Shown here piece by piece: positions 13,650 to 56,412 of a DNA stretch of 64,000 bases (its first letter is position 1; each line of letters starts with the position of its first letter). The translations under genes and the position numbers were made by a program. The notes beneath the pieces are model-generated. The model worked only from the letters and a program-made list of their open reading frames with translations, searched no databases and was not told the DNA's origin. This DNA comes from Allacma fusca (Eukaryota > Arthropoda > Collembola > Symphypleona > Sminthuridae): contig OX359245.1 in assembly GCA_947179485.1 (NCBI GenBank), positions 23,981,067 to 24,045,066 on the forward strand, in the 5' to 3' direction.

Positions 13650-14374
13650 CATACATGGGACCTACTCACGAGTATTGAGTAATCTACTCAACTCATACTC
13701 GCACTCATGCTTGTGAGTAGCGAGTAGATGTAAGAGTAGTATTTAATATTTCGTGCTACTCACCACGTGAGAATGAGTTGTGGGGTTTTTGGTGTACACG
13801 AGTGAGTAGGAGTGCGAGTAATAAAATCGCCTTCAATGCTACTCATTCACAAAGGTTTTATCCTTGACAGGATGACGCCAAATCGATTGGGATCAGAATG
13901 TATCAAGGCTAATCGGCCACAATTATTAATATGCCACAACATTGCCACCCTGAAGAATGCATTTTTATGAAATCACAATATTTACATAAACATTCACTCC
14001 AATCATATTGCAATAGACACCGACGTGGGAATTATTGTGGTTCAAATTTATGGGTCAACGTCAGACCACCATAATTGTCTTACACAAAATTTGATATTTT
14101 GAGTGTTTATTCGAACATAAATGAAATTGTAGTTTTTTTGTATTGGTAGCAGATATATTTCTTAATACACGAAAACGGGTTAAGAAACTAAGTATACGAA
14201 ATACGAGTGTTCCTAGTGAGTAACTCACGAGTGAGAGTAGGAGAGTTCACATTTTGAACCATCGCGGATGAGTAGGAGTAGCAATGCAAGAATACTACGT
14301 GAGTACGAGTGCCTTTCAGTACCGTGAATAGTTCGTGAGTAAGATGAGGAGTAGTAAAATACGTCCCATGTATG
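13650..14374. mobile_element. hAT-like non-autonomous element, ACTC/GAGTA words
   Basis: Termini CATACATGGGAC and GTCCCATGTATG form an inverted pair. The flanks GTGCGATG (13642-13649) and GCGCGATG (14375-14382) match at 7 of 8, as expected for an aged 8-bp target duplication. Both ends are crowded with words such as CTACTCAC, GAGTAGGAGT and CACTCGTACTC in inverted orientation. The middle has no coding region. Confidence 0.8.
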
Positions 14375-14439
14375 GCGCGATGCATGATGTAGGAGCGTTA
14401 ATTGAAAGATTGGCGCGCTCATTCCACTATATAACAAGC

Positions 14440-14613
14440 CGCTCTATGTAGTATACTACTTCACTATAAATCGAATCAAGCCGGTGGTATATACAGAGAA
14501 GCACGGCGAGCCGAGCGAGCCGAAACTCTATAGCAGAGGAGTTTTTTCAGCTCGCTGTGCTTCTCCTCGGCTTGCTTGGCTATATAGTGAAACAGTATAC
14601 TTCATAGTGGCTA
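14440..14613. repeat. GAGCGAGCCG-word inverted repeat
   Basis: The arm AGAAGCACGGCGAGCCGAG near 14491 is answered by CAGCTCGCTGTGCTTCTCC near 14549, with similar words on either side. The outer limits and any target duplication are unclear. It is probably another small word-rich element. Confidence 0.45.
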
Positions 14614-14621
14614 GTAGAGCA

Positions 14622-15634
14622 CATAGATGCACACCCTCATGAGGGATGAGGGCAACGCTCACCCTCACGAGGACTACGATGTAATCACTGTATGAGGGTG
14701 AGCGCTTGCAAATTTTTGATGCTCTCATTGAAATGAGCGTGAGTGCAGCAGGTACTCATATTGTAATCACGAAGTGAGGGTGAGAGGATTTATCGCACTC
14801 ACGATACGGTAGCACACGTAAAAAATATATAGAATAATGCCATCTTGCGTTGTGGTTATAATTATCTATGCAGCTTTTTGCTTCGATATAAAGTGAAATA
14901 TCAGCTGAACATTATTATCAGTGTGCATTTAAATTCAGTTCTACGAGTTTCAATCTCCATCTTGCACGTCTTTACAAAAATCAGCTCGCATTACATCCAG
15001 AAGATGTACGAATGAGTAATAAATGGGCTAGATGTATTTGTAAATTCTGAACGTAATACTGAATGCTGCACAGAAAGTTCCTTAAATAACTGGGAGTTAA
15101 ATTTAAAAAATGAAACCCAAGAAGCGTCCATTCTTCCCAATCCCAGCCGAAATTCAAAAAAATTATCAATATGGATAATTTACGCTACAGTAAAAGAATA
15201 GTAAAAGCGAACCAATACATAATGATGCATACATAGTATCGTATTTCTCAGTTTTTCAATTAACGTTCACTAAAATCCCCTTTTTCTGTAATAAAAATAT
15301 TCGACTACAGCAACAATAATATTCATTGTATGCATTTTTCTGTCGGATTGCATGTGCATACGCTGACTGACGGAAGCCTATTATTAAAAGGTGAAATTTA
15401 TAAACGTAAACGGATAATTTCAAAACAATAGAACTTTATAGCCAAACTCAATGTAAACGTAAATTAAAAGAGCGCACTCTTGAGCGCGAGGGTGAGCGCA
15501 TAAATTGTTTTTGGTGCGCTCACGAGCGTGAGGGCGATTACAATATGTACACAAAATTGTGAGGGCGAGCGAGCGGTGCTTCACGGACAATGAGCGTGAG
15601 GTGAGGGTGAGCGAAAATAAAATGTGCATCTATG
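14622..15634. mobile_element. hAT-like non-autonomous element, GAGGGTGAGCG words
   Basis: Termini CATAGATGCACA and TGTGCATCTATG are perfect inverted repeats. The flanks are an exact 8-bp duplication GTAGAGCA (14614-14621 and 15635-15642). CACCCTCAC/GTGAGGGTGAGCG words fill about 180 bp at each end, and the AT-rich centre is non-coding. It inserted within the first bases of the CCCG-word element that continues at 15636. Confidence 0.9.
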
Positions 15635-15635
15635 G

Positions 15636-16396
15636 TAGAGCATCACCCCGTGGGATATTTTAGGCCCGTGTCCGCCCGTGGCTCGTAACGTTTTACCCCT
15701 ACCCGCCCGGCCCGAAATTAATGTCTATCGAAAAAGCCCGGCCCGGCCCGCAAAATTAAAAAAAGCCCGTAGCCCGCCCGCAAATACCATACATCTTAAA
15801 TACTGAAAAACTGTATTTTAAAATATTGGTGTTCTTGACGGTTACATACAGTTGTTAAACTATCTTGTTTATTAAGAAGGCAATACAAAAGCTTATGCTG
15901 CTATTTCGGCTTTGGTAAGCACTTCTGGTGGCGTTCTTGAATTTATTACAATGTTAACTTCTGGATTCTTATTACAAATACTTGAACTACTAGCAGGATT
16001 CATCTTATAGATTAAATGGAATTTTCCACAGTAATGAAGAGCGAAATGAAACTTACCAAATAACAAATGCAGGTATGCAAGAAAACTTTTCTTGATATCC
16101 CACGGGGTGATGCTCTATCGTACACCAAGCGTTAGTTTGTTTGAAAGCTAAAATTACAAACGTCTAAAATTCGTTCAAGTCATTCAAGTCTATGTACATT
16201 CACAACCGCTGCTCCTGCATTCACAACTAATGGAATTTCTCACGGGCTTTCACGGTCTTTTTTAACCGCGATGAAAAGACCGTACCCGCCCGTAACCCGT
16301 CAAACGTAATCATTTTTACCCGTACCCGCTCGAAGCCCGTGCGGGCCGGGCTTTTTGCGGGCTTACCCGTAAATTTTAACTGCCCGAGATGCTCTA
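15636..16396. mobile_element. CCCG-word TIR element, copy 1 (composite)
   Basis: It starts TAGAGCATCACCCCGTGG and ends CCCGAGATGCTCTA. Both ends carry degenerate GCCCGCCCGTACCCG words in opposite orientation. A perfect inverted copy of its first 23 bp lies internally at 16095-16117, so the left 482 bp is by itself bounded by 23-bp TIRs and the remaining 279 bp forms a second half. The same composite arrangement recurs at 20461-22872. No clear target duplication was found. The TIR type (TAGAGCATC) is hAT-like. Confidence 0.75.
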
Positions 16397-16518
16397 CTGT
16401 AGAGCACCTATTTACTAAACAGCATTGAAATGTTGTCAAAAACACATTTATGCCACGGAAAACTTTGAGGACAATAATTCTAAAAATTATTTTTTGAGTA
16501 CCGACTTCACGTAATAAA

Positions 16519-17188
16519 TTAGCAGCAAAAAAGCTTAAAAGTAAAGTTGCTTTTCCGCCCTTAAAAGTAATAAACAAGTTATGGTACAATAGTTATTTTA
16601 TAGTACAAAAATATGCAGGAACAATGAAATTATTTATTGAAAAAGCAACGCGATCACACATGATTTTATAAAGAAGTTTTTCTCACTCATGTTTTTGTAA
16701 TCTGTTTTTCTTTGCCTTCTGCTATTATTACAATCTACAATACTATTTACAATCTGTGATAATCTGGTGCAGGTAACTTTGGAATTTTATAATTATTTAA
16801 GTGTGTTGGAATTTGGAGCAGAGGATCACTTCGGCAATGAACTTTCTTTTCGCTTACAAAATTTGACTTTTTCCGTGTAAAGCAAACGTTGGATGTAGAT
16901 AAATGTATAGTGGCTGTAGCAGAACTTCGTTTTACGATAAAATTACACAAACTATTGTTTTTTATGCATTTTCGGGAACACCATACGAAAGAAAATGGAA
17001 TCTGTAATAACATATATTACATAATATTTGTGTGAATTAAAAATAGTGTGTGATCGCGTTGCTTTTTCAATAAATAATTTCATTGTTCCTGCATATTTTT
17101 GTACTATAAAATAACTATTGTACCATAACTTGTTTATTACTTTTAAGGGCGGAAAAGCAACTTTACTTTTAAGCTTTTTTGCTGCTAA
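16519..17188. mobile_element. foldback element with about 143-bp inverted arms
   Basis: The left arm (16519-16661, beginning TTAGCAGCAAAAAAGC) is repeated almost perfectly in inverse orientation at 17046-17188, with a spacer near 385 bp. The spacer holds an open frame of 88 codons (minus strand) without a recognisable domain. No convincing target duplication was seen. It is likely a non-autonomous DNA element with long TIRs. Confidence 0.75.
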
Positions 17189-17250
17189 GTTTATTTATTT
17201 CTTTTACAATAAGTATTTGTTACATATGGATACATCTGCAAGTGTAATTC

Positions 17251-18208
17251 TAAGGTTCTCAACGGATAGGATAATTCCCTTATCCTATCCGTATCCGATC
17301 CGAATTTTTACCGATAAAACTGAAGCGTATCCGATCCTATCCGCTTCCATCGGATTAAACATAATCTTATCTTATCTAATCTTTATAATCTTAATAAGAA
17401 GCTTATTCGTAAATTTTCGGATGACGTATTTATCTTATCCGAAGCCGTCGGATAAGAAAAAGGAGCTATCCGATTCTATCCACGGATATCCGATCCTATC
17501 TGCGGATACACGAATCAATTGTAGAAGTTGAAATTGGTCCTAGAGTTTGGCTTTTAGTTTTAAATAGATATAATATACGAATATCCTGTTAGCTTATAAC
17601 GTATTGTAATGCTAGAAGAAACCGTGGGTATACGTTTGCTTTGCTAAACATTTAATATAAATAAATTAAGAACAGAGATTTTTGTTTCGAATATCAGATG
17701 TTCTCAAAAATTAACTTACTGGAAACCTTTAACCATTTGAAGCCTATAAGAACAGGTAACTAGAATAAGCAGCTGAAATTCAAAATATGACTGAATTTCT
17801 GGTCCTAACATAAATACTTGAATGCTTATATTCGTGAAGTTCGGTTTTAGGTTTGCTTACAAGCTACACGAACTGAAAAATATACGAACGTTTTGAGAAA
17901 TTACCGAACTAATGTCCTGTCGTTGATTGCAGCAGATAGCAATTATTAGAGTGGTCGACATGTTTCAAAAATTCGTTTATCCGCGGATATTCTCGGATAT
18001 CCGTCGGATTATCCGTAAAACAAAAAGTCGCCATCCGATCCGTTCGGATATTTTATGTAATAGTATCCTATCCTACCCGGGATTTTTTCGGATGGAAATG
18101 ACATAACCGATCCATTCGGATAAATATCGGATCGGATAATCTTCAGTTTTATCCTATCCGTATCCGATCCGTATCCGTTCGGATATATCCGATCCGCTGA
18201 GAACCTTA
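17251..18208. mobile_element. hAT-like non-autonomous element, CTATCCG/GATCCG words
   Basis: TIRs TAAGGTTCTCA and TGAGAACCTTA are flanked by an exact 8-bp duplication TGTAATTC (17243-17250 and 18209-18216). About 270 bp at the left end and 230 bp at the right end consist of degenerate TATCCGATCCTATCCG words. The AT-rich centre is non-coding. Confidence 0.92.
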
Positions 18209-18314
18209 TGTAATTCTGTAATAAAACCATGTATTATTTTATTCCAATGCAATGCTGGACTTAAACATTTTAACAAAAATGAGATGTATTTATTAAAATA
18301 TAGGCATACAGGAG

Positions 18315-18633
18315 CAGAGCTGCGCTCACGTCAAGTAAATCCCATACTTGACCCTGAACTACAATTGATCCTGATTGTCAAGTATATTTTTCAGTGGGTG
18401 TTAAACTTGACGGTTCATGGTCAGACAATTACTTGAAAATTCAGTGTCAAGTTTTCAAGTACGTTTCGCGTAACTTGAACCTAGCCAAATATAGCCGTGA
18501 CAACTCTTGACTTGACCATGACTTGATCATGTCCCCAACTTGAACTTTTTCAAAATAGAAATACAAAAATAGTATTTACACTTACCCATGATTTGAAAAA
18601 CTCATGGTCTACTTGAACTTGAGCGCAGCTCTG
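18315..18633. mobile_element. hAT-like MITE, ACTTGAC words
   Basis: A 319-bp element with TIRs CAGAGCTGCGCTCA and TGAGCGCAGCTCTG. The flanks TACAGGAG (18307-18314) and GACAGGAG (18634-18641) agree at 7 of 8. ACTTGACC, CAAGTATT and related words recur throughout in both orientations. Confidence 0.88.
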
Positions 18634-18641
18634 GACAGGAG

Positions 18642-19845: not shown

Positions 19846-19848
19846 TGG

Positions 19849-20195: not shown

Positions 20196-20886
20196 GACTT
20201 TAGTTAATTTTTTCAGAGGTATCAGCGTCCCGACTTCTAAATTGTAATTTGAGGAAAAAATTGAGCCGCATCAAATACAGCTGCTTTGTCTAATTTGTCA
20301 AGGAATCATTTGAGAAATATTAAAAAATTTCCACAAAATGAAGTGTAAATACATATTTTGTATTATCTTGTATTAGCTAAAACGGGGGAACATGATGAAA
20401 CACCAAGTTCATTGAGAGGGGTGAGATCTATCACAAGTAACCACAAAACTAATTGTGAGATAGAGCATCACCCCGTGGGATATTTTAGGCCCGTGCCCGC
20501 CCGTGGCTCGTAACGTTTTACCCCTACCCGCCCGGCCCGAAATTAATGTTTATCAAAAAAGCCCGGCCCGGCTCGCAAAATTAAAAAAAGCCCGTAGCCC
20601 GCCCGCAAATACCATGCATCTTAAATACTGAAAAACTGTATTTTAAAATATTGGTGTTCTTGACGGTTACATACAGTTGTTAAACTATCTTGTTTATTAA
20701 GAAGGCAATACAAAAGCTTATGCTGCTATTTCGGATTTGGTAAGCACTTCTGGTGGCGTTCTTGAATTTATTACAATGTTAACTTCTGGATTCTTATTAC
20801 AAATACTTGAACTACTAGAAGGATTCATCCTCTAGACTAAATGGAATTTTCCACAGTAATGAAAAACGAAATGAAACTTACTAAAT

Positions 20887-20935: not shown

Positions 20936-21026
20936 ATATAGTAGGGCTTCTATTCGGGACGGGACGTCCCGAGGTTTTCGGGACGGGACCGGGATCGGGA
21001 CAGTTTCAGGACACAATTGTTGTCCC

Positions 21027-22111
21027 CAGGCGCGTAGCCAGGAATTGGCCAAGGGGGGGGGCAACATTAATTAGAACGTACATATGTAAACTGACACATT
21101 CTATGGGAAATCCAATTCACGAATGTAAAACGCATCAAATTTTGCAAACTGAATTTCAGATTTTAAAATTCTCCACGTTTTACGATTCCATCAAATTTGA
21201 ATAATTTTGGACCAGATTTTTAATTGGGCTTGATCAGATTTCGGGGAATTTCGAGACCTCGGTTCGCTTCTATCGTTTCAGCTGGTGCTTAACCTACTGT
21301 TCCTGTGACAAACGTCTTTGCTTCGAAAAGAAACTGCGGATATCAGGCGTGCTTGATCTTTTCATAATGAAGAATTAAATACAATTCACTAATTTAATAA
21401 TTCTATCGAGCTTAAAACTTCCCTCGAAGCGATGCGTGTAAGTTACAGAAGCTAAAAGCTTTTAATATGAAAATATTTAAAGCCGCTGTTACCATACTTT
21501 TGTTGCCGTTGAAGGTTGAAGTCAAATCGACGAGGCAAAGGTCAAAGTGAAATCGGGATTTCGCAATGCATTCAAATCACCCGCTAAACAAGGATGAACA
21601 CAATAAAAATATACACTAGAATCACCCAAAACGTCTCTTTATTGAATGGTTTATTACCCACGGCTTCTTCCCGTCAAAAGTTGACCCATCCATACTCGCG
21701 AAAATCGTATCGAAATGCTTTTCCATTTCGATAGAAATTTATTGATCTAGAAATCCTTTGCTCTCGCAATGGACAAACATTGCGATACGATTTTCGCGCG
21801 TATGGATGGGTCAATTAATGACGGGAGGAGCCGTGGGTAATAAATCATTCACACGAAACATGCAAATTTCATGGGTGATTCTAGAGTTATGCTGTTTATA
21901 CACAGATATTTACATGGAATACTGCATATGTTGAGTTTCGAAGTGATTTTTTTTACAAATAAAAAAAATTGTACTGTCAAATCACTAAAAAGGTTTGCAT
22001 TTCTCGGTATGGACTGATTTATTTTTAACTTTTTGAGTGATTTGAGAGTATTTTATTTCGAATGGGGGGGGGCAATTGCCCCCCTTGCCCCCCCCCTTGG
22101 CTACGCGCCTG
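21027..22111. mobile_element. hAT-like element, CAGGCGCGTAGCCAGG termini, nested level 3
   Basis: The left end CAGGCGCGTAGCCAGG and right end CCTTGGCTACGCGCCTG are flanked by an exact 8-bp duplication GTTGTCCC (21019-21026 and 22112-22119). Long G runs lie just inside both ends, including a G9-CAATTG-C6 hairpin near 22065-22085. No transposase frame is visible. It lies in the CGGGAC element and holds a further fold-back MITE. Confidence 0.92.
21613..21890. mobile_element. fold-back MITE with TA flanks, nested level 4
   Basis: The ends CACTAGAATCACCC and GGGTGATTCTAGAGT are inverted. Inside, two further arms of about 60 bp pair (TTTATTACCCACGGCT... with ...AGCCGTGGGTAATAAA), so almost the whole element can fold on itself. 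It is flanked by TA on both sides, suggesting a Tc1/mariner-type MITE. Confidence 0.75.
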
Positions 22112-22872
22112 GTTGTCCCCATGTTATTTCGGGACTGAATTGGGACGAATTTTTTTGTCACGAGGATTTCGGGACGGGGCAGAACAATAGGTCGGGACAG
22201 ACAAAAATACCTATACAGTATACTATTGCTGTAAAAATGAATATTTATGGAAATCGTTCAGTTTAAAATTTCTTGTTCTACATGTAAATATTTTTAAAGT
22301 AAATTATTGGAGGTATTCTGATAGAAATGAAGGAATTTGGAGCATTTCATAAGACTGGTATTATAACCGGGACGGGACGTCCCGAGGTTTTCGGGACGGG
22401 ACCGGGATCGGGACAGTTTCGGGACAAAATATTTGTCGCCATGTAATTTCGGGACAGAATCGGGACGATTTTTTTTGTCCCGACGATTTAGGGACGGGAC
22501 AAAAAAATTGTCCCCAAAGAAGAAGCCCTATTATTTAGTAACAGTCGTACAGACGGGCACGGGCCTAAATTATCCCACGGGGTGATGCTCTATCGTACAC
22601 CAAGCATTAGTTTGTTTGAAAGCTAAAATTGCACGCGTCTGAAATTCGTTCAAGTCTATGTACATTCACAATCGCTGCTCCTGCATTCACAACTAATGGA
22701 ATTTCTCACGGGCTTTTACGGGCTTTCACGGTGTTTTTTAACCGCAATGAAAAGACCGTACCCGCCCGTAACCCGTCAAACGTAATAATTTTTACCCGTA
22801 CCCGCTCAAAGCCCGTGCGGGCCGGGCTTTTTGCGGGCTTACCCGTAAATTTTAACCGCCCGAGATGCTCTA

Positions 22873-31185: not shown

Positions 31186-32057
31186 TAGGGTTGGTCATAT
31201 CGTTACCTTTCGAAATATCGTTAATATCGTTATCGTTCACAAAAATAATCCCGATAACGATATGGTAGAACGATAAAAACGATATACAATATAAATTGAA
31301 ATAATAATGAAATTAAGCAGTAAACGTATTCAATAAGTATTTAATTTATTAAAAGTTACATAAGCAATGTAAATAAGCCGAAATAATGCCTCATTTTCAC
31401 TTATTCATTTTTCCAAATATCTGTTTAACCATTCCTTCTAGTGCTCGGGCTAATCCAATTCTGAATTGGAAATTTTCGGTTCAGTTCAATTCAATTCACT
31501 AATTTTTCGATTTAGTTCAAGATGAAACTGAATCGATTGATTCAGTTCATAACATTGAATTAAATTGAATCGTTTTCCTTGAAAGTTCAAACGATTCATT
31601 CTGCCCCAAAAATTTAAGCAACAGATTTACCGTTTACAAGCTGTCCAGATCCTAAAAGTAACGATCTGTACCCTTAGTTTAACTTCCTTGTGTTGTGTGC
31701 TTGGAAAATACTGCTTTCGTGTCTAGAAAGCGTATTCTTTAAGTTTACATGCGAAAACCGTTGTTTTCGATTCAGTTAAATTCAAAAATTTGAACTGAAA
31801 TGAAATGAATTAATTTTTACTGAACTGAATTGAACGGTTTTGACCACTCCTTCCGGTTCAGATGACACTTTCTAGGGCATGAAATACGTCAGATGGTCAC
31901 AGTATGCAATTTTTGACTATTTTACCTTCTTAGAACGATATTAAAGTAGCCCGATATATCGTGTGAAATATACGAGAATTATCGTAGCATATCGTTCCTC
32001 CAAATCGGACGATATTAACGATAATATCGTATCGTTATATCGGTATGACCAACCCTA
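31186..32057. mobile_element. hAT-like element, ATCGTTATCG words
   Basis: Perfect TIRs TAGGGTTGGTCATA and TATGACCAACCCTA are flanked by an exact 8-bp duplication GTTGGCAC (31178-31185 and 32058-32065). About 100 bp at each end are degenerate AATATCGTTATCGTT words. A second word-rich element occupies its middle. Confidence 0.93.
31440..31848. mobile_element. nested TIR-like element, GTTCAATTCAG words
   Basis: Degenerate CAGTTCAATTCAATT words at the left and GAACTGAATTGAAC words at the right surround a non-repetitive core. Ends AGTGCTCGGGC and TTTTGACCACT are weakly inverted, and CCTTC occurs on both outer sides. The limits are approximate. It interrupts the ATCGTT-word element. The same word recurs at 44710-44960. 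Confidence 0.6.
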
Positions 32058-32560
32058 GTTGGCACGTATTTACTCTACTAACATTAGGTACATACATATA
32101 CTCTCAACATGCACTGTGCTTTTGTTACAGCCAGGAGCACCCTACCTACACTCAAATCCCTCTAAGAGGGCGTTCGCATATTTCACGAATAGCTCTCGGT
32201 AGTAAGACTTGTTTGTAAATGTTTGCGTTAAATAGGGTGGGGGTGTTAGGGGGCACGAAATGTTTGCGCCAACACTTCTCGGAAATTACTATTACTTATT
32301 AACACTCGCATGAACAGATTTTTTGACTAACTCTAAACAATCACTTTCGGAGCACAAGTTAACCCAAAGCTGGGCAAAGTATTCGCATACCTTAAATCAT
32401 ACATATTATTAGATTATTACGCACAACCTACATTTTAGCCTACATAAATCACTCCCGAGACTTGACCCTACCTACAACCTACATACATCCCTCCTGAATG
32501 TTGACCCTACCTATAACCTACATACATCACTACCGAGATTTGTCACTACCTACAACCTAC

Positions 32561-32732
32561 TAGGGACGTCAATGGTCTGTTCCGGACCATTTATAATGGT
32601 CCGTTATTGGTCTGGTCCGGTCTGATCCCAGATTTGTATGGTCTGGTCCGGTCTGAACCAACACTTGGACCAGACCAGGTACAATTAGTAATTTTATAAA
32701 ATCTGGATCAGACCAGACCATTGGCATCACTA
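32561..32732. mobile_element. 172-bp hAT-like MITE, GGTCTGGTCCGG words
   Basis: TIRs TAGGGACGTCAATGGTCTG and CAGACCATTGGCATCACTA are flanked by an exact duplication CAACCTAC (32553-32560 and 32733-32740). The body is almost entirely GGTCTGGTCC words. Confidence 0.92.
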
Positions 32733-33413
32733 CAACCTACATACATCACTCCTGAGATTTGTCCCTACCTACAATCGGCGTACCTCTTTGTCGTAATTGA
32801 ATCATACCTGCAAAACTAAAATGAAATCATGCATACATAAATTCAAGTTATTTACAATGCTCTTAATTTAAAACCAAACAATACATTCTTAGTTGGCAAT
32901 GAAAATTTTTGTTCAAGTTACATTATTTAAATTTGCTTTCAAAAAGTTTCAGATATTTTTTCGACAATGTCTGATGTGTAATATACTCACTAAAAATCAA
33001 TTTGTGTTGCTTGATTTATAATTCACTGATTTCAATAATGAACAGTGAAGAAATCGAATTTTAGCCAGTCAATTTTATAAGACGTTTCTGTTTAATGCCG
33101 TATTACATTTATTATACAAAGAATAAGCATGTATTATCATGTACAATGAAAATGTTTCAAATGTAATGTAAAAATACTTAAATTCCAACCTGATCTTTCT
33201 GGGCCTATCTGTATACAACAATTGTTTCAATCATTCCTGTACATAGACAAACTTGCTCTTCTGGCATTTTAGACAAATGATTTACTGACTGATTCTCATG
33301 TTGAATCAACTTTTCACTTTGCACCAAAGATGCACATCCTTCCTCGAAGGATAGGGCTTATAGGCATATAAATAGGATAGGCATTAAAATCAAGCTTCTT
33401 ATGAAGGTAGGAT

Positions 33414-34664
33414 CAGAGATGCGCAAAGGAAATAGCCTTCCTTCAAGCCTTCCAAGGCGAAAATTCAGTAAAGATTTTCCCTTCAGCATGTCGTAGAATG
33501 AAGCCCTCTAAAAAATCTGCCTTCCTTCACCCTTCCTTTCAAAATACATATCGTCGGTGAAGAGGCAAAATGATCTAGGTGCATGATCGATTAGAATCAA
33601 AATGATCTACATGCAGTTTCACTAAAGGCAAAATGAACTACTTGCATTGAATTTTAAAATCAAAATGATCTAGATGTAGTTTCTCTTAAAAGCAAAATGA
33701 TCTAGATGCAAATTATAATAAAAACAACGTGTAAACACATTATAATGTCAGTATATGAATATGCGAGAAATTAAAAATCTTTTTTGTTCCTAAAAAAATT
33801 AGTTATTCTGCGTATAAATTATATTATAAAATACAAAATAAATACTAGGAGGCAGTAAACCCAAAATTGTAGTTTTTAGGAAAAGTAATGTGATAATGGT
33901 TTGACGTCAGATTATATTATTTAATTATAATGAAATTTTATTAAATATTTATTCACTGACCCCTTATAATAATTAGCAATAATAATAATTAATAATAATA
34001 ATAATAATTACAGTCCTTATAAGCTACGTGTCCTCCTTGCAGAAGCTATTTTTCTCACACAGAAATTCAGGACAGCACTTAGATCATTTTGCTTTTATGG
34101 AAAACTGCATGTAGGTCAGTTTGCTTTTAAAAAGACTTGTACCTAGTTCATTTTGCCTTTAGGGAAAAAGTTATGTAGATCATTTTGATTCTAATCGAGT
34201 ATGCACTTAGATCATTTTGCCTCTTCACCGACGATATACTCATTTTTGCCTTCAGCCTTCTTCTAAAAGCAGCCTTCCTTCAATTTTAAACTACAACCCG
34301 CTTAAAAACGTTTTGCACGAGCAGGATTCAGTGCCGTGAAGAGAGTGGGCACACATTGTCGGTTGTGGTTGTGAGTTCATGAATTGGCTGTATTGTTGCG
34401 CTAGCAGCAAAATGCCGATGCAGATGCTATGGTTTTACTTTATAGATATTTCGTGTACATGGAAGCCTTCACGGCCTTAGAGGGCTAATATTTAGGAACC
34501 CTTCCTTCACAATCCTTCGCTACTAGTTTTTGTGAAGGCTTCCTTCAGCCTTCAGAAAAAAGTATCCCCATCCTTCCATTCCTTCTGCAACGTTAAGAAA
34601 GTTACCTTTCCGCCTTCAAGGAAGCCTTCTTGGAAGGCTAGCCTTCGAAGGCTGCGCATCTCTG
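33414..34664. mobile_element. hAT-like element, GCCTTCCTT words, nested level 3
   Basis: TIRs CAGAGATGCGCA and TGCGCATCTCTG have flanks GGTAGGAT (33406-33413) and GGTAAAAT (34665-34672) matching at 6 of 8. CCTTCCTTCAAGCCTTCC words fill the ends. A decayed relative is seen around 55600-56080. The centre holds the element at 33551-34234. Confidence 0.82.
33551..34234. mobile_element. TA-flanked TIR element, CAAAATGATCTA words, nested level 4
   Basis: The first 27 bp (beginning TCGTCGGTGAAGAGGC) are perfectly inverted at the right end. Each end has about four copies of a 30-40-bp unit containing GCAAAATGATCTA plus TGCA. It is flanked by TA, so it resembles a Tc1/mariner-type MITE rather than hAT. 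Confidence 0.88.
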
Positions 34665-35337
34665 GGTAAAATAGGATAGTAACCTATGTCTTCAGCGTGA
34701 AAAAATAGGAATAGGAAAGGATAGGCAGCCTTTTGTACTGCAAGTATAAAGGAATATAGGCAGGACTGGGCTTCATATACCTAAATGTTACCTAAAATAT
34801 AGGAAGGAATCCTCGGATTTAGTGTATATGTATGTCGAATAATAAGACATGTACAGTTTTTGGACGATTCTGGAGTATTTTCAGGTTCTATCAACGTTGT
34901 AAATTCAGTGTGGTTTCTGCGCTTTCTGAATGAGCATTCATTAGTATCGTCCATTCTTCTCAACAGCTTTAAAATATTCTATTTTTTATTGTTGCTTAGT
35001 TTTTTCATTTTGAAATTTTCCAGCAATATTTAATTTTCCAGACAGACTATTATGTTGAGTCGGAAGTGATTAAAAGATGAATGAACAAATTAATTAATAA
35101 ACTTATTGCTTGATCATGCATTTTAATAATTTTGCTTAAAATGCGGAAATTATCAATTATTAATCTGTTGCTTACACTTTAACACATTGGAAGTACCTTT
35201 ATTACTGAGATAGTTGGATTTTTATACTGGCTTAAGGAGTATATACATAAGTAATGTGCGGACGCAAAAGGAACGCTGTTCATACACAGAATGAAATTTA
35301 TATGGGATAGGAATAGGCATGTATGCTGCTATTGTAT

Positions 35338-35822
35338 CCTTTAGGGATCATTCTTTTATTACGTCATCAAAATTTTGCCATATTTTTACCCCCCCCCCTT
35401 GTCCAGACCATCATCATGTTCATCAACGACTGTTTACACCCCCCTCCCCCTCCTTTTATTACGTCATCAGTAACCACTGATACCCGTGGCACATGTTTTG
35501 CCGGTGACAATATCACGTGGAACAGTTTTGATTCGTATTAATATGAAGGAGTCTAAACACGTCGAATCCAGTACGTTTCACTCATACAAATAATAGTACT
35601 GTGAATAGACTGTAGTCTACGCAGATGACTTTCAGCTTTTTTCAACTTTAGCTTTTAGTTTTTTAGTAATAAGTTCAGTAAACATTTGATTTTCCCGCGG
35701 ATGATGTTACTGTCGTCATTTCTACTAAACCCTCCCCCCCTCCTACCTTCATCATCGTCATTTCTTCTCGTCCCCCCCTCCCCCATTTGGTGATGACGTA
35801 ATAAAAGAATGAACCCTTTTAG
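35338..35822. mobile_element. TIR element with TTATTACGTCATCA termini
   Basis: The left end GGGATCATTCTTTTATTACG and the right end TGACGTAATAAAAGAATGAACCC are inverted. Pyrimidine runs (C9 and similar) lie just inside both ends. The target duplication is not clear, with CCTTTA and CTTTTA outside. A short frame at 35323-35541 has no recognisable content. Confidence 0.75.
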
Positions 35823-35837
35823 GAAATAGGTAGGCAG

Positions 35838-36242
35838 TAGTGTTGTCCAGTCTTGAGTGAGAGTTTGAGACTGATTGGCAAAACGAAAAGACTGACTCTT
35901 AAAAGACTGAGACTGACTTTAAAAAGAAGGCGTTTATGAGACTGAGACTGAGTGTAACTGTTGCCTTTTGTAAAAAGACTGACTGAGACTGATAAAGACG
36001 CATGTATACAACGCGCGTATACAATATTAAGCAATTTTAAATTTTTGTGCCATTATTAAAGCCCAAGGATTGAAATTGGCGCCATTTTGTATCCTTGGGG
36101 ACTGAGTGGGAGTTTGACCCAAGACTTTCCTTGGGACTGAGACTGAGTTGGACGGATATGCTTAGCATAAAGACTGACTGTAAGTAATAATGACTGTAAA
36201 TAAAAGACTGAGACTGATAAACTTCAAGACTGGACAGCACTA
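35838..36242. mobile_element. hAT-like MITE, GACTGAGACTG words
   Basis: TIRs TAGTGTTGTCCAGTCTTGA and TCAAGACTGGACAGCACTA have an exact duplication GTAGGCAG (35830-35837 and 36243-36250). The body is mostly GAGACTGACT words, denser at both ends. Confidence 0.93.
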
Positions 36243-36751
36243 GTAGGCAGCTTGAGTAGGCTTGACTATCCTATATCTATATATAGGGGGTTCGAGTTTT
36301 CCATTACTATAAATAGGATATTGAGGATGTATTCTTACTTCCCATTTGTAGAAAGGTTATAGGATTGCGGACACATATGTGCATCTTTGCTTTGCACGTT
36401 ATTTCGAAGGGGATAGACTTACTGCAAACGAATTGAAATCGTTTGCACTCAAGCACGTAAACAAAAGTAAAAAAACATGCGAAACAAAATCTAAATGGGG
36501 CTGTTATTCAGCGCTTAGGAATACGAAATGTTCGGACATACATACCTACATTTTTATGCTTAAGTATCTACCTTTTTTTATGTAGGTGCGTACTGATTAT
36601 TCCCAGCATACATATATTACATATATTTTTGCCTCGAATTATGCAGCCCACATACAAATGCCTACAAAATATGTTAAAATTTGAGCGTAGCCTACAATTT
36701 TGCCTACTTGTAGGCATAAATGTAGGGTATGCGCTCAGCTTTGAGTTAACC

Positions 36752-41453: not shown

Positions 41454-42335
41454 CGGTGCATCGCATGGGTACAAAAATGCTGTACCTGGACCTGAACCCA
41501 AAAAGTGGGTACCGGCAAAAATCGTACACAAACCCGTACCTGACTATAAGTACCCATTAAATAAATGTTGGTACATCGACCTGATTAATTTGCAAGTAGT
41601 GCGTACCTGTGCCTGATTTTTTCCAGTAGCGAAAATTTAACTAATATATGGACCTGCACCTGAAAACATTTCCTGGGTACCTGTACCCAATCAGGTACCT
41701 ATAAAAGAATTACTGCAAACGATTCAACATGATGACATTCGTTGATTTACATTACAGAAATTACATGCTAGAGACAATTCTGCCTCGCCATAAATTTTAC
41801 ACTACTAGACATCTGAGGTATTGCCATCTTCAAATAAATATTCAACTTCTAGGTCATCCTCCATAACCACAATATCATTTAACGTCATTTTGACTGAATC
41901 ACAACTGGAATTTGTAATTACACGTACTTATTGCTGGCACGGTATGCTAATCTGGCCAACCAACTCTGTTGCTTAAACGTCTGCTTTTTCAAAATTTACT
42001 AAGCACTCCTGAAAACACGCTGACTAGCAAAATAAATCTTTAAGTCAGGGAGAGCCACACACTACACTAGAAAACTCGTAAGATAGGTTTCTGTTCGTAA
42101 AAGTACCCACATTTTCAGATACTAATTCATCAGGTCCAGGTACCTGTTCCTGTCAGGTACAACCAAAAAACTTTGTACCTGTGCCCAACACCTGACTTTG
42201 TACCCAAAATTTAGGTACATATAGCTAGTAACCATAAAATACCCATTCAGTTTGGGTATTTAAAAAGAGTACCCATTTCGGACCTGTACCCGTACCCAAA
42301 TACTCAGGTACTACCCATACCCAAGCGATGCACTG
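41454..42335. mobile_element. hAT-like element, GTACCTG/GGGTACC words
   Basis: Termini CGGTGCATCGCATGGGTAC and TACCCAAGCGATGCACTG are inverted. The flanks GCACCCAT (41446-41453) and GTACCCAC (42336-42343) match at 6 of 8. Words such as GTACCTGTACCC fill about 250 bp at each end. Similar words also occur just outside the left end (41310-41450), so an older relative may lie there. Confidence 0.75.
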
Positions 42336-45539: not shown

Positions 45540-47360
45540 GTCGGTACACTCGGTTGACCATGGACAGGTCGACTTTGCGTCACGTCTCCTACAGGACTTT
45601 CCAAAGCCCGTTTTCGGTTGTAGGAGCGCGACGCCCTAGGCGTTTTTTATGGTAGCCAAAACCAAAAAAACCATTTGGCTGGCGTCTGGCGACTTAATAG
45701 TTATTTCGCTATTTGTAATGATCTTCACACCGGTAGATTTCCTCACATCTTGAGCGTGGGCCTGAGTTTTCCGGGCAGTGTTGGAGGATGCCGTGTCATG
45801 GTGTATGAACACCTTGTCCAGGACTTCACTGTAGACTGATGGAATGTGGCGATTCACTAGTGGCCTTAAAACACGGTCATTATAGCACTCTTTATTTATT
45901 CGTACTTTTCGTGGCACTTTAATGAGGGGCAACACTCCTCTACCACATATTCCCCCAACCGCCATTACTGTCTTGAAGAACTTGTCCTAGTCCACGTACC
46001 AGTCTTCCGGTTTTTTTCCCGTCTTGGTAACGTAAAAAATTCTTCGTTTCCCCTTGGTATTCCGGATTTCGAATAAAGCCGCATCCAATGGCACTAAAAT
46101 TTCGGACCTTTTGCCGGCAAGATGACGCTCATTCCGGATTCGGCTACTCGGTTTCCGATTGGCCATGTGGCGCTGCGTCAACTTATGAACTCGATGTTTG
46201 TGACGAATTTCCTTGTTGAGTTTAGAAATAATTTTTCTCACCGCACGCGGGGATAACTCTACTCTTCGAGAAATATCTTTCTGGGTAGGCGGGTTCACCT
46301 TGGACACCAATAATCGGATCTGGCTTACAATGGTTGGTTTTGCTTGGAGAGGCGGGTATTTCTTTTTCGGTGATGGAAGGTCACTAGTAGGCATTGGCAT
46401 ACCGATATAGCCATACGATATTATCGTCCATATCGTACATTTTTCGAAACGATAATTGAACGATAATTCTCGTAAACTTTGAACGATATATCGGTCATTT
46501 TCCATATCGTAAATACGTGGTTCAATTCCCCAAATAATGATTCACCCCCAACATGTTAATGTATATTAACTAATTCGAAGCATCAGGTCAGTCCGCTCAT
46601 AATAATACCATGTAAATTCTAGGTTTCCTCAAAACATACGTTAAAACATAGGTGTAACTTACGGAATTTGCTCATTGTCAGAACCAGTTTTCTGTAATTA
46701 ATACCAAGTTTGTTTCTGCTGTAATCAAAACACTTGGTGGATCCTGCTTGATTACTTATTGTTCTCACCAGTTTCAGAAAAATTAATACCAATTATGCTG
46801 TCAGTGGGGTTAAAATATACTTGGTTTGCCTTACGTAAATCCTCATTGCAGTACCAGTTCTCATTCAATTAATACCAACTATAGTCTCGGTGTTCCGAAT
46901 GGAATCAGTAAAAAGAATGCATTTTTGTGGCACTTTCTGTTATAAACAGTAGTAATAAGCGGAGTATTTAATTAATCATCAATACTTCGGCAGTGTTGGT
47001 CGATTATATTTGTATATTATATTATTAACCGATGCGTTTTAAATTGAAATAAATATCGTTATATCGTCCTTCGATATCGTTATCGTCATTTTTAGGATGA
47101 ACGATAACGATATTAACGATATTTAATAAACGACCGATATGCCAATGCCTAGTCACTAGCTTTAACTTTGCGCCTCAAACCTTTTTTATTTATTATAGTA
47201 GTCACTGTCATGGGAAATCCTAATTCCCTGCTCTTTAAGTTTCCTACTTATTGCACGGGAGCTAAATTCCCCCGTGGGAAGTCACAAAACTGTTTCCTCA
47301 ACTTCCGGACTAAATTTCTTTGCCATTTTCATAAACATGGACGGTCGCATAAGCTCAATG
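45540..47360 (-). pseudogene. Tc1/mariner-like transposase, degraded and split
   Basis: The N-terminal piece at about 47190-47340 (MAKKFSPEVEETVL, then SRAISRKLKEQGIRIS) looks like the first helix-turn-helix of the paired-like DNA-binding domain. After the inserted element, 46380-45990 carries the second helix-turn-helix (TQKDISRRVELSPRAVRKII) and the start of the catalytic core. 45970-45640 continues with AVGGICGRGVLPL and the HHDTASSNTARKT motif, in which the D corresponds to the second catalytic Asp of the DDE/D group. Stops at about 47275 and 45988 and the 764-bp insertion show it is not functional. Confidence 0.82.
46388..47151. mobile_element. hAT-like element, ATCGTTATCG words, second family
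   Basis: TIRs TAGGCATTGGCATA and TATGCCAATGCCTA have an exact duplication GTCACTAG (46380-46387 and 47152-47159), which here interrupts the transposase frame. The subterminal words (ATATCGTTATCG, AACGATATTAACG) equal those of 31186-32057 although the TIR sequence is different. The centre is non-coding. Confidence 0.93.
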
Positions 47361-51462: not shown

Positions 51463-51666
51463 GTTATTGTGGTAGATTGATTGTAGGGTACGGTGGTAGA
51501 TTGATTGTAGGGTACGGTGGTAGATTGATTGTAGGGTACGGTGGTAGATTGATTGTAGGGTACGGTGGTAGATTGATTGTAGGGTACGGTGGTAGATTGA
51601 TTGTAGGGTACGGTGGTAGATTGATTGTAGGGTACGGTGGTAGATTGATTGTAGGGTACGGTGATA
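51463..51666. repeat. 24-bp satellite, short left array
   Basis: About 8.5 identical units GATTGATTGTAGGGTACGG plus TGGTA. Only the GGGTACGG version of the unit is present. It is cut off by a TIR element at a TA. Confidence 0.95.
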
Positions 51667-53040
51667 CACTCTAAAAATTCCGGATTAAATTTAAGTTTGG
51701 GCGTTCGCTTTTTTATTCCCCGCCATGAATAAATAGCAAACACTCCATATCTAAGCGGGTTTCCTTCTTGTTATGCGGATTACAAGTAATTCAATCCGGC
51801 CGACCTGGGTGTATGGCTGGAAATTTTATACTTGTACGGCTGATTTTTTTACATGACTGGTAGCGTCCTTAAACTATTCCTGGTTGTGGGGTGGTTTCAT
51901 GCCAAATACCATTCTTAAATCTGAACTGTTTGTGCTCACGTTTTGTAACGAATCTGGTAAAGTTGAAAATGAGTTTGCGATATGGTGCAATTTAAACCTA
52001 AAATGACTTCTGTGAATAAAGTTATGGTACACATTTTATTAATACAAAATGGTAATCACATTAATATACAAATATTAATAGAATAATTTAGACATTTCTG
52101 AAATAACGTGAATGACAATATGTATTACCCTAAATTACAAATAGAACAAGAAATATTCCAGACACAAAAATCAAGCGAAAAGTATTTAGTAAGTATGATC
52201 TCAGCTATTAGCGGGAGACAAACGCGGACAGTTCCAAAAAAGACGGAGGTAGTGGAGGTTTTTGTATCTATTTTGAACTGCATCTAGAATACGAATCCTG
52301 TGACCGGTACAAGGCACACCATAACGAAGTTCTTGCTTCATAGGTTCTGCACCTTCTCCCAAAATCGTCAGCATTGTTTCGTCATCAAGACATCCTCTAG
52401 AAATAAGGAGACAAAATTCTTTGTAACGGATTTTACATTATTGTATATATTTTTCTTAATTACAAATGAATTGGAATTCGTCGTGAAACATGATACATTA
52501 ATTATGTAATATTATTGGTATGGGAAAATGTTTACATTAATTAAAATTAATTAAACATTAAAGAATGAACTTACCATGAAACTTCGCCCCGTATAAATCC
52601 GTAACCTTGAGGTCACTCAGCACTGTATCAATATTGATGAAGCTCATTGTTTGAACTCAATTATTTTAAAACCCGCAATAATCAATAATATCCAAAATGA
52701 CAATGAGAATGGTTACTGGTAATGCCTGCAATGACCTGCGTGTAATAGCGACAGACTGCATGATCAAGATACAGACAGTAGCAGACCGTTGATAAACCGA
52801 CCGTTAAATTTTTCTTCACGTTTGCAAGAACATTTCACATCCGCACCCGATAATTTCATTCTTGCTTTCCAGCATCACAAAACAGTTCCTGGACGGGAAT
52901 ATAATAGTATAGGAATAAAGCTCACCCGCAGTGCGTCCACAAATTCTAACTGCAATTTTCAAGTCAAAGTTTGAAAATACTCTTGTACAGGACTAAATGT
53001 ATTTATTCTTGCATGCGGTCTAACCGGTATTTTAAGAGTG
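51667..53040 (-). mobile_element. TA-flanked TIR element carrying a small spliced gene
   Basis: The left end CACTCTAAAAATTCCGG and right end CCGGTATTTTAAGAGTG are inverted with about three mismatches. Both ends are flanked by TA, which is part of the satellite unit (..GGTGGTAGATTG), so the insertion point is exact. It contains no recognisable transposase but has the two-exon SAM-like frame at 52201-52647. Confidence 0.8.
52201..52647 (-). CDS. small two-exon gene, SAM-like domain (88 aa)
   Basis: Exon 1 52647-52575 begins ATG (MSFINIDTVLSDLKVTDLYG) and ends at a GTAAGT donor. Exon 2 starts at 52394 after an AG, in phase, and ends with a stop at 52203-52201. Together they give 88 residues: a helix pair, then DDETMLTILGEG, LRYGVPCTGHRIRILDAV, and a basic tail. 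The order (short N-terminal helices, a leucine-rich middle, GHRxRILxA in the last helix) is that of a sterile alpha motif, a protein-interaction domain. The 5' splice site is strong. The gene lies wholly within a TIR element, so it may be element-encoded or captured from the host. Function unknown. Confidence 0.6.
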
Positions 53041-54261
53041 TAGATTGATTGTAGGGTACGGTGGTAGATTGATTGTAGGATACGGTGGTAGATTGATTGT
53101 AGGGTACGGTGGTAGATTGATTGTAGGATACGGTGGTAGATTGATTGTAGGGTACGGTGGTAGATTGATTGTAGGATACGGTGGTAGATTGATTGTAGGG
53201 TACGGTGGTAGATTGATTGTAGGATACGGTGGTAGATTGATTGTAGGGTACGGTGGTAGATTGATTGTAGGATACGGTGGTAGATTGATTGTAGGGTACG
53301 GTGGTAGATTGATTGTAGGATACGGTGGTAGATTGATTGTAGGATACGGTGGTAGATTGATTGTAGGGTACGGTGGTAGATTGATTGTAGGATACGGTGG
53401 TAGATTGATTGTAGGGTACGGTGGTAGATTGATTGTAGGATACGGTGGTAGATTGATTGTAGGGTACGGTGGTAGATTGATTGTAGGATACGGTGGTAGA
53501 TTGATTGTAGGATACGGTGGTAGATTGATTGTAGGGTACGGTGGTAGATTGATTGTAGGATACGGTGGTAGATTGATTGTAGGGTACGGTGGTAGATTGA
53601 TTGTAGGATACGGTGGTAGATTGATTGTAGGGTACGGTGGTAGATTGATTGTAGGATACGGTGGTAGATTGATTGTAGGGTACGGTGGTAGATTGATTGT
53701 AGGATACGGTGGTAGATTGATTGTAGGGTACGGTGGTAGATTGATTGTAGGATACGGTGGTAGATTGATTGTAGGGTACGGTGGTAGATTGATTGTAGGA
53801 TACGGTGGTAGATTGATTGTAGGGTACGGTGGTAGATTAATTGTAGGATACGGTGGTAGATTGATTGTAGGGTACGGTGGTAGATTGATTGTAGGATACG
53901 GTGGTAGATTGATTGTAGGGTACGGTGGTAGATTGATTGTAGGGTACGGTGGTAGATTGATTGTAGGATACGGTGGTAGATTGATTGTAGGGTACGGTGG
54001 TAGATTGATTGTAGGATACGGTGGTAGATTGATTGTAGGGTACGGTGGTAGATTGATTGTAGGGTACGGTGGTAGATTGATTGTAGGATACGGTGGTAGA
54101 TTGATTGTAGGGTACGGTGGTAGATTGATATTAGGATACGGTGGTAGATTGATTGTAGGGTACGGTGGTAGATTGATTGTAGGGTACGGTGGTAGATTAA
54201 TTGTAGGAAACGGTGGTAGATTGATTGTAGGGTACGGTGGTAGATTGATGGTAGGGTACGG
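53041..54261. repeat. 24-bp satellite with 48-bp higher-order period
   Basis: About 51 units of GATTGATTGTAGGGTACGG+TGGTA. Units with GGGTACGG alternate with units having GGATACGG, making a 48-bp dimer. The alternation is broken at a few places (for example 53317-53364 and 53485-53533) by two like units in a row. A few units at the right end carry private changes. Because 24 is a multiple of three, long frames run through both strands; they are not genes. Confidence 0.96.
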
Positions 54262-54656
54262 CAGGGGTCCGATTTTTGTAAATCTCCCTGGAAGATAATT
54301 TCTGAATTTCCCTGCTGAATATTATCTCTCTGCTGGGAGGTCCTCAACAATTTCGAAAATCCCTGCTGAAAAAAAGTTCAACGATTTTCAAAATCCCTGT
54401 TTTGCAGACAAAAATTCCCTACAAGACGTGAAATCCCTGCCAAATTAGGTCAATCAATCTAAAAATCCCTTGTTTGAATAACAATATACCCTGAAACACG
54501 CCAACAAATTTGAAAATCCCTGCCAAAAAAAAGGTCAACGATTTTAAAAATCCCTGTTCATGAAAATAAATCCCTTCCCTTTGAGATTTTCCCTGCCCTG
54601 AAATATTTTCTCCCTGGGAAGAATAATCCCGTCTTCCTACGAAAATCCGACCCCTG
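54262..54656. mobile_element. hAT-like MITE, AAATCCCTG words, in the satellite
   Basis: TIRs CAGGGGTCCGATTTT and AAAATCCGACCCCTG have an exact 8-bp duplication GGGTACGG (54254-54261 and 54657-54664), a sequence that is part of the satellite unit. AAAATCCCTG and TTCCCTG words fill the body. Confidence 0.93.
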
Positions 54657-54730
54657 GGGTACGGCGGTAGGTTGGTGGTCGGGTATATTATTAGGTTGAA
54701 GTTCGGGTATCGTGGTATTGTATGGTGGTA
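54657..54730. repeat. right remnant of the 24-bp satellite
   Basis: Diverged units (GGGTACGGCGGTAGGTTGG...) continue for about 75 bp beyond the inserted MITE. Confidence 0.75.
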
Positions 54731-55590
54731 ATAACATATGTAGTCTATTGTTTCTTTATTAGTGGTAGGTTGGTAGTAGGTAGTTTTGTTTAGTTTCACA
54801 ATAGCATTTTGTTACTTAAAACATTGAGTCTAGCAATAATTTCAGTTTATTCCTTACATTTTGGTGAGAATAGGTGAAACATAGTCAGCAAGGTTACCCC
54901 TATCACCCCCTTGATATATATGACCCACTCCCTCTCCCAAAACTGAAACGTAAAATGTGCATGCTCCCTTGTTGGTTTTGAACGCCGTTGGCAGCGCAGC
55001 GGCCACCATACCGTCGCCGCAGGCCACGCTAGTCCTATACTTAATAATACTATATTTATTTAATACTACGTTGGTCTGTTGGTTTGTTGATCTGTGGATG
55101 CCCTAACAATCGTACTATAACATGCTTTACTTCCCCGCATTTTTACAACCATTGCTAATTTATTGTAGTATAAAAGGTAGGGATTTCCCAATGCAAACTT
55201 ATACATTCCTCTTCGAAATTATATGCATTCGTTTTATTGTTCGGTGCATCAGTTGCATGACTATACCCCTACTCGGCATGTCGGCAGTCGGCATCAGTAG
55301 CATACCTGCTCCCTTCATATTAATTTATTTATGAAGCCCCTAGTCTAAATTTCCTAGGTTCCTATATTTATTCTTCGAACTTCCTATAATATTTTATTTT
55401 CACATAAATCCCATTGAACCAGGCATATATCCTAGCCTAGATTCTTGTTTTTTTTGCTTCCTCCCTAGAATTTTTGCCAATAAAAGGGCGTAGGCGTAGA
55501 CATTGGCAAGGGGCCCATGTTTGCTGCAAACGTGTTGTCATCCACAGTCAGATCGGTGCGTAGAATCGAATGCTTCATTGAAGGCGGCTC
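54731..55590. other. intergenic stretch, nothing recognised
   Basis: A GC-rich patch at about 54965-55040 (GCAGCGCAGCGGCCACC) stands out in AT-rich sequence but has no supported coding content. Confidence 0.35.
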
Positions 55591-55599
55591 ACTGATTTT

Positions 55600-56080
55600 T
55601 CCGCCCAGAGGAGGAATTTGGAAGGTGGGCTGAATTTTTTCCCGAAGGTTGAGGGAAGGCTTCATAAAATTTATCGAAAATGGTAGGCGAAGGAGGGCGG
55701 GTTAGAACTAGCCTTGGCCTTGTATGTAGTAAAGGTTTCATGCGGATGATGCCTGATGGATGAAATACATGGCAGAAGTTTGAACGTTGTTAAATATTTC
55801 CATGAAATTTCATTCATCACACTCATATGTGACGATACTGTAGATCAAAACTACTTTGTTTTCAAAATTCATGTACTTTTAGATACTATTTCTATAATTT
55901 TGCAATAAATGATTTGGAGGAAGATTGAAGGAAGGGTGAATTAATTTTAAAATTGAAGAAAGGCAGATGGAAGACAAATAATTGTAAAGGCTTCATTCAT
56001 TGGTAGGAAGAAGGGAGGCATTTTTTTAAACTTCCCTTTGAAGGCGTGAGGGAAGATCATTTCATTTGGGCATCTCTGGT
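55600..56080. repeat. decayed GAAGGAAGG-word element
   Basis: Words GGAAGGCTTCAT, GAAGGAAGGGTGAA and GGAAGAAGGGAGGC recall the element at 33414-34664, and the right edge GGGCATCTCTGG resembles its terminus GCGCATCTCTG. The left edge is not defined. Confidence 0.55.
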
Positions 56081-56221
56081 AGAATCTGAATAATAATGAA
56101 TTTTGGCCTAGAAAGTTTGAGTTTCGATAAGATGATACGTCAAAGGTTACGAGTATCAAAGAAATACGGTTTTTAATAAGTGAACTTGGAATCCACCAAT
56201 ATTAGAGCTCTTTGAAGTTTG

Positions 56222-56412
56222 TAGGGCTTGTATTCGGGACGGGACGTCCCGAGGTTTTCCAGTCGGGACCGGGATCAGGACAGTTTCGGGACAAACTTTT
56301 TGCCCCCATGTAATTTCGGGACTGAATCGGGACGATTTTTTTTGTCCCGACGATTTCGGGACGGGATAGAATTGTCGACGGCACAAAAAAATTGTCCCCA
56401 GTAGAAGCCCTA
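56222..56412. mobile_element. 191-bp hAT-like MITE, CGGGAC words
   Basis: A short relative of 20942-22530: starts TAGGGCTTGTATTCGGGAC and ends GTAGAAGCCCTA. The flanks GAAGTTTG (56214-56221) and GAAATTTG (56413-56420) match at 7 of 8. Nearly the whole body is CGGGAC/TTGTCCC words. Confidence 0.9.

Follow-up and report, generated by a model that had tools for sequence, protein, structure and literature searches.

The window analysed here is a 64,000-nucleotide stretch of chromosome 1 of the springtail Allacma fusca (contig 1, 23981067-24045066; genome 392.7 Mb, 91 contigs). Between positions 13650 and 56412 of the window lie 16 transposable elements built to one plan, with short terminal inverted repeats (TIRs), 8-bp target-site duplications, and, in most families, ends packed with copies of a short subterminal word that differs from family to family. 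Very probably the window holds a minimum of 16 hAT elements, non-autonomous or decayed, from 14 parallel families, each recognised through its own word.

The elements were sought as TIR pairs with 8-bp duplications, with tandem arrays masked for the TIR statistic. The duplications are exact in ten elements, match at 7/8 in four (A, D, E and O) and at 6/8 in two (K and P), and each of the ten exact duplications flanks matching TIRs. The first 14 bases of the TIRs agree at 11-14 positions in all 16 elements, the perfect bases in H numbering only 8. Among 1073 non-low-complexity pairs with TIR agreement of at least 13/14, exact flanking repeats of 5, 6, 7, 8, 9 and 10 bp occur 0, 8, 1, 7, 1 and 0 times, respectively. 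All seven repeats of length 8 belong to the named elements, and the eight of length 6 would be self-complementary flanks within long hairpins. A preliminary description of this DNA had counted about 18 TIR elements, with ten exact duplications, five at 7/8 and two at 6/8. All ten exact duplications and both of the 6/8 class were recovered, while the 7/8 class falls to four and the elements to 16. Two other TIR candidates with TAGAGCATC ends, near 15636-16128 and 20461-22593, were rejected because any duplication there is at most 3 bp long. The 25 exact duplications available favour T as the second base and A as the seventh (29/50), which is a preference of hAT elements.

The elements are described here in window order, with boundaries given without strand; a single sequence denotes an exact (8/8) duplication, and paired sequences the two imperfect copies. 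Element A (13650..14374) has the TIR CATACATGGGAC, the words CTACTC/TACTCA and the duplication GTGCGATG/GCGCGATG. It is followed by B (14622..15634; TIR CATAGATGCACA, words CCCTCA/CGCTCA, duplication GTAGAGCA), C (17251..18208; TIR TAAGGTTCTCA, words CGGATA/ATCCGA, duplication TGTAATTC) and D (18315..18633; TIR CAGAGCTGCGCTCA, word TCAAGT, duplication TACAGGAG/GACAGGAG). Element E (20942..22530; TIR TAGGGCTTCT, word CGGGAC, duplication TTATATAG/TTATTTAG) carries F (21027..22111; TIR CAGGCGCGTAGCC, duplication GTTGTCCC), which has a poly-G run and no word. Element G (31186..32057) has the TIR TAGGGTTGGTCATA, the word TATCGT and the duplication GTTGGCAC.

Element H (32365..36743; TIR CAAAGCTG, word CCTACA, duplication AGTTAACC), is a nest of insertions. 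Within its 39-bp tandem repeat lies I (32561..32732; TIR TAGGGACGTC/TAGTGATGCC, word GGTCTG, duplication CAACCTAC), and further in lies J (33325..36389; TIR CAAAGATGCACAT, duplication CTTTGCAC), whose word ATAGGA is weak and non-significant. J in turn contains K (33414..34664; TIR CAGAGATGCGCA, word GCCTTC, duplication GGTAGGAT/GGTAAAAT) and L (35838..36242; TIR TAGTGNTGTCCAGTCTTGA, word GACTGA, duplication GTAGGCAG). Element P (41454..42335; TIR C(A/G)GTGCATCGC, words TACCCA/GTACCT, duplication GCACCCAT/GTACCCAC) is the weakest boundary call. Element M (46388..47151; TIR TAGGCATTGGCATA, duplication GTCACTAG) shares the word TATCGT with G; its start is overlapped by a 184-codon open stretch (45987-46541, minus strand) that weakly resembles a winged helix, under the Pfam threshold. 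Element N (54262..54656; TIR CAGGGGTC(C/G)GATTTT, word TCCCTG, duplication GGGTACGG) belongs to an abundant family and lies within a 24-bp tandem array. Two arrays of this 24-bp unit (51469-51663 and 53040-54261) stand 1.4 kb apart as if interrupted, and N ends the second; a GGGTACGG pair at 51654/53054 falls within the tandem array and was rejected as an element end, the true pair being 54254/54657. The last element, O (56222..56412; TIR TAGGGCTT(G/C)T, word CGGGAC, duplication GAAGTTTG/GAAATTTG), is a 191-bp relative of E.

For each element the top 6-mer of the terminal 85-240 bp was compared with 200 dinucleotide shuffles and with flanks of equal length. In 13 of the 16 elements it exceeds the shuffles at p<=0.005, and in 15 it is missing from the flanks, P being the exception with 2 copies. 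A word-by-element table is nearly block-diagonal, with 4-22 copies of a word in its own ends and 0-1 in other elements; the exceptions are the pairs E/O and G/M, each with a word in common, and the word of J, with 5 copies in C and 4 in J. Since E/O and G/M share words, the 16 elements make 14 families. The possibility, named in the preliminary description, that the words are equally common outside the element ends is thus contradicted by both the flanks and the word table.

Transposase-bearing relatives were sought through the hAT dimerisation domain (PF05699). The genome search gave 860 candidates, of which the best 150 were scored, all of them above the cut-off. Sixty-two of these 150 domains were read, 22 as loci of 7-10 kb and 40 as the domain with 1.1-1.35 kb downstream (loci are numbered with the prefix L); they were picked best first, mostly one per distinct score, and form a non-random sample. 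Twelve of the 22 long loci contain 13 elements that enclose the domain, with 8/8 duplications, TIRs matching at 9-12 of 12 positions and a shared word. L019 and L029 have weaker ends with 7/8 duplications and were still used in the finger search described below. The other eight (L009, L012, L017, L020, L021, L023, L024 and L025) have no accepted ends, the candidate pair in L009 (8/8 duplication, 11/12 TIR) lacking a word.

Partners that combine TIR, word and transposase sequence were found for five of the 14 families (B, C, I, H and K), so that the transposase-bearing copies anticipated in the preliminary description exist for part of the set. Two-sided partners are L018 3055-6820 for B, L028 3829-7167 for C and the outer element of L015 (2396-9985) for I. 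These three have 8/8 duplications, and the 8-bp duplications likewise anticipated at copies are borne out to that extent. One-end matches were found in addition for B (in L033) and C (in L045 and L047). The partners of K and H were read from the transposase to one end: a K end in L031 (89% over 136 bp) lies 324 bp downstream of a hAT domain, and an H end in L067 (90% over 195 bp) lies 657 bp downstream of one. The partner transposase is named by its Pfam domain for B, C, H and K. For I, where Pfam gives the L015 outer frame no name, it is named through the L028 transposase, with which that frame is homologous (25% over 283 aa, E 2e-21). Three other candidates were rejected as partners: L059, which has the word of L beside its transposase and lacks the TIR; L034, whose word cluster fits I and whose domain is of the L019 type; and L054, which is near the word of D and is only a cousin.

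Two of the partnered elements retain traces of a transposase. Within B, positions 14946..15225 (no strand assigned) align over 285 bp, at 80%, with the 5' frame in the transposase region of L018, which makes B an internal-deletion derivative. Within H, positions 33211..33266 (minus strand) preserve a piece of the hAT dimerisation domain, with 85.7% identity across 56 bp to L107 (the L067 domain), and H is thus a decayed copy. Stop-free stretches within the elements reach 94 codons at most, and a tblastn search of the window with the 62 hAT domain fragments gave no convincing match (best E 0.006). The statement that the window holds no hAT transposase frame accordingly stands for intact frames and gives way at the DNA level in B and H.

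Comparison of the window ends with their transposase-bearing relatives bears on whether the words have a function. An explanation we consider unlikely is that they arose incidentally, through replication slippage or repeated tandem duplication close to transposon ends, were passed on to the short elements by internal deletion and have no role in recognition. Some ends are indeed plain tandem arrays, with a 39-bp unit in H, units of ~35 bp next to L048 and longer units next to L051; F has poly-G only, and short elements would inherit any parental word. Against this explanation, word positions are identical at 502/543 (92.4%), compared with 615/822 (74.8%) for other subterminal positions. The positions are non-independent, so that the pooled test is not a probability; the difference has the same direction in 8/8 comparisons, two of which have a common query end. 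Gapped alignment could favour words; H, I and K align ungapped in BLAST and point in the same direction. Moreover, the same word occurs at both ends of an element though the two ends align only in stretches of up to ~90 bp, and in most families it occurs in both orientations.

The words were also compared with the transposases across the loci read. A 6-mer with at least 7 copies in 260 bp is present in 26 of 40 pieces downstream of transposases, compared with 3 of 33 pieces of the window that lie outside elements. When each lineage is represented once, at least 7 word copies are reached in 27 of 46 downstream pieces and 11 of 45 flank pieces of hAT loci (Mann-Whitney p 0.0008). Covariation was assessed in 45 of the 62 loci (990 pairs), after 17 without a cluster of five copies within 900 bp had been dropped. 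The mean word cosine is 0.009, 0.019 and 0.010 for domain identities of <30%, 30-40% and 40-50%, and rises to 0.103 (50-65%), 0.318 (65-85%) and 0.714 (>85%). Among 32 lineage representatives, chosen by highest cluster count and all below 85% identity, word similarity tracks transposase similarity (Mantel r 0.313, p 0.0002), which again argues against slippage. Within the clade of C, the words are TATCCG (L028, L045, L047 and L069), GATCCG (L050), both of these (L066) and AACCGA (L053 and L064). Together with the partners of the five families, the correlation supports the earlier proposal of many parallel hAT lineages that diverged in their words.

The same pattern bears on the suggestion, in our view very improbable, that the words serve host proteins or DNA shape (bending or hairpins) while the transposase reads the TIR alone. 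Several words are partly self-complementary, including GGGACGTCCC in E and ATATCGTTATCG in G, and the ends of Ac are also bound by maize nuclear proteins, to judge by the title of a reference. A host factor should, however, favour one word across families, whereas the words are near-private and track the transposase.

BED-like zinc fingers, candidates for the part of the transposase that reads the words, were recognised by eye in nine of 13 transposase-bearing elements, in three across putative introns. The elements scanned were L010, L011, L014, L015 inner and outer, L016, L018, L019, L022, L026, L028, L029 and L030, and no finger was found by eye in L010, L014, L015 inner or L019. The finger pattern is CxxC or CxxxxC plus NxxxH, with N in eight of nine and A in its place in L015 outer. 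Residues were aligned to those of the housefly transposase Hermes by anchoring on the zinc-ligand histidine (H71). At the positions of Hermes residues 66 and 70, the pairs and the accompanying words are YR with CCCTCA (L018), FR with GAACTC (L022), FK with CTCTAC (L011), AK with CGTTAC (L026), TN with AAGGCA (L016), GY with CGGATA (L028), GT with ACGTTA (L029), TD with CAACAA (L030) and SK with GGACCA (L015 outer). The words of L026 and L029 overlap while their finger residues differ, which weighs against a simple finger code. L030 gives a zf-BED match over the Pfam cut-off, and in the PDB it matches Hermes (E 8e-4) and the ZBED1 BED domain (E 0.002).

A number of observations count against recognition of each family by its own word. 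The words of J (p 0.15) and N (p 0.18) do not rise above the shuffles, although TCCCTG is plain by eye in N, and the top word of F (p 0.01) is only a poly-G run; the family-specific words that the preliminary description saw packed into every element end are therefore borne out in 13 elements and are near-private, F, J and N failing and E/O and G/M sharing theirs. The 11 of 45 control flank pieces that reach 7 word copies also tell against it, and these flanks hold other hAT elements. Related transposases without a shared word are found in the pairs L009/L018 (70%), L046/L051 (70%) and L048/L070 (65%), and in the covariation test also in L016/L019 (78%), L019/L034 (97%) and L020/L022 (99%). 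The last three mismatches probably reflect the search window or a neighbouring element; when loci are read individually, L022/L027 and L016/L019 do share words, and L034 adjoins a word cluster of the I type. Of the fingers, only that of L030 passes Pfam, and single exons of L018, L022, L026 and L011 gave no family at E 1.

Finally, the reading of 62 of the 860 candidate domains yielded no partner for nine of the 14 families (A, D, E/O, F, G/M, J, L, N and P). Their TIRs, duplications and overall plan suggest that they are hAT elements. The P and Merlin superfamilies also make 8-bp duplications, and some of the partnerless families could belong to one of these instead. We regard this as decidedly unlikely: it would explain why no transposase-bearing relative appeared for them in the part of the genome read, whereas these families have the same plan as the five with a hAT partner, and TIRs begin with C/T-A in both groups.

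Unoccupied counterparts of the insertions were sought by joining the flanks with one copy of the duplication and searching the window and loci L001-L030. Counterparts were found for five of the 16 insertions (K, C, F, I and N) and not, in this small set, for the other 11 (A, B, D, E, G, H, J, L, M, O and P). K has an unoccupied site in L023 (94%) and C in L013 (90%), while F has two counterparts, element O (89%) and the other half of E itself. The 39-bp repeats around I and the 24-bp repeats around N continue in register across the joined flanks. These sites are paralogues or tandem-array sites and not alleles; at these five insertions they agree with the earlier assumption that the 8-bp repeats arose by insertion.

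Further copies with 8/8 duplications are J in L023 (7013-8288) and N in L024 (2459-2929), and a further D copy with a 7/8 duplication lies in L013 (7569-7897). Genome copies were seen for A, B, C, D, G, K, L and N, and the L023 copy is the one further copy of J; the counts are lower bounds, the best 40 of 1130 and 40 of 5605 candidates having been scored. For E and O, only each other were found as copies in the window and L001-L030. Exact G ends occur 274 times genome-wide (reversed control, 0), with at least 41 facing pairs among the 100 matches listed, 35 of the 41 being spaced 750-892 bp. Pairs spaced 4243, 5856 and 11422 bp (C8:11718287-11722529, C1:61817783-61823638 and C1:25256584-25268005, respectively) may be full-length copies. 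At C12:21074129-21075535, copies of C and D adjoin in the same arrangement as in the window, so that both seem to ride inside a larger repeat; the same region at L013 7383-7897 holds D without C.

The window contains several other features. Two Ty3/gypsy-type long terminal repeat (LTR) retroelements lie on opposite strands at 2886-10145 and 57795-63811, with matches to reverse transcriptase, RNase H and integrase. A 655-bp element at 40281-40935 is presumably a Mutator-like short element: its terminal inverted repeats are long, with a perfect match over the outer 85 nt, and its 9-bp duplication, AGCTAAATA, is exact. The two arms of an inverted repeat at 16516-17191 are 152 nt long and match at 98%, and no duplication of more than 2 bp was found around it. 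At 24296-25366 (minus strand), a frame that weakly matches jaz-type zinc fingers, under the Pfam threshold, and has a long low-complexity tail is perhaps an exon of a host gene. A 200-base N run at 29399-29598 adjoins a degenerate field of a 15-bp repeat (AGATCAGTGAGGACA) at 29613-30356, present in both orientations, which looks like the ends of another element.

Taken together, the evidence suggests that the words are transposase binding sites read by the BED finger, and that each named lineage moved its short relatives. Each family would be mobilised by a hAT transposase of its own from elsewhere in the genome. This enzyme would cut at the short TIR and insert with an 8-bp staggered cut. It would find its own ends through many weak copies of the word in the outermost 100-250 bp, to which its N-terminal BED zinc finger would bind cooperatively, as has been reported of Ac and Hermes (repeated motifs are known also from Herves). 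As transposase lineages split, finger and word would have changed together, leaving near relatives with related words and distant ones with unrelated words. A more tentative extension, which may well prove wrong, is that one springtail genome holds dozens of parallel hAT lineages in which finger and word co-diverged stepwise, that the finger residues aligned with Hermes 66 and 70 are part of a readable protein-to-DNA code, and that a change of word acts as a barrier to cross-mobilisation.

What is known of the recognition principle comes from separate studies of a few model elements, and this genome offers many replicates of it. Because transposases and words vary together, and near relatives differ by a letter or two, two questions become testable: which BED finger residues read which bases, and how a transposase and its ends can change together while function is kept. 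Differing subterminal motifs have already been published for Ac, Herves and Hermes, and what is new here is the number of co-varying word-transposase pairs in one genome. In the open-access papers searched we found none on family-specific subterminal hAT repeats or on the DNA specificity of transposase BED fingers, though such papers may exist; the papers found in a search for springtail hAT elements concern other subjects, judging from their titles and the opening of their abstracts.

The known systems, drawn here from excerpts of the papers cited, resemble the A. fusca elements in different respects. Members of the hAT superfamily have 8-bp target-site duplications and TIRs of 10-25 bp (PMC3942097), and most hAT transposons have subterminal repeats (PMC10368747). 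In maize, Ac/Ds has TIRs of 11 bp and 8-bp duplications, and the transposase binds cooperatively to AAACGG hexamers within the outer 200 bp (PMC3260210). The non-autonomous copies in both species share short TIRs, 8-bp duplications and repeated subterminal hexamers, but Ac/Ds represents one word and one lineage, whereas the A. fusca window has 14 families and about a dozen words within 43 kb. In Herves of Anopheles gambiae, C(G/A)ATTCAT is repeated at both ends and is sufficient for transposase binding, and its authors stated that the sequence of the bound region varies among hAT transposases, which ensures their specificity (PMC3143072). The A. fusca elements likewise repeat one motif at both ends; Herves is a single element with measured binding, while in A. 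fusca there are many families whose words are known from sequence alone. In Hermes of the housefly, the BED finger binds AAG(T/C) subterminal repeats via S66, N67 and R70, while H71 is one of its zinc ligands (PMC10368747). The L030 sequence matches that of Hermes, whereas the A. fusca words are longer, denser and family-specific, and the finger residues at positions 66 and 70 differ too.

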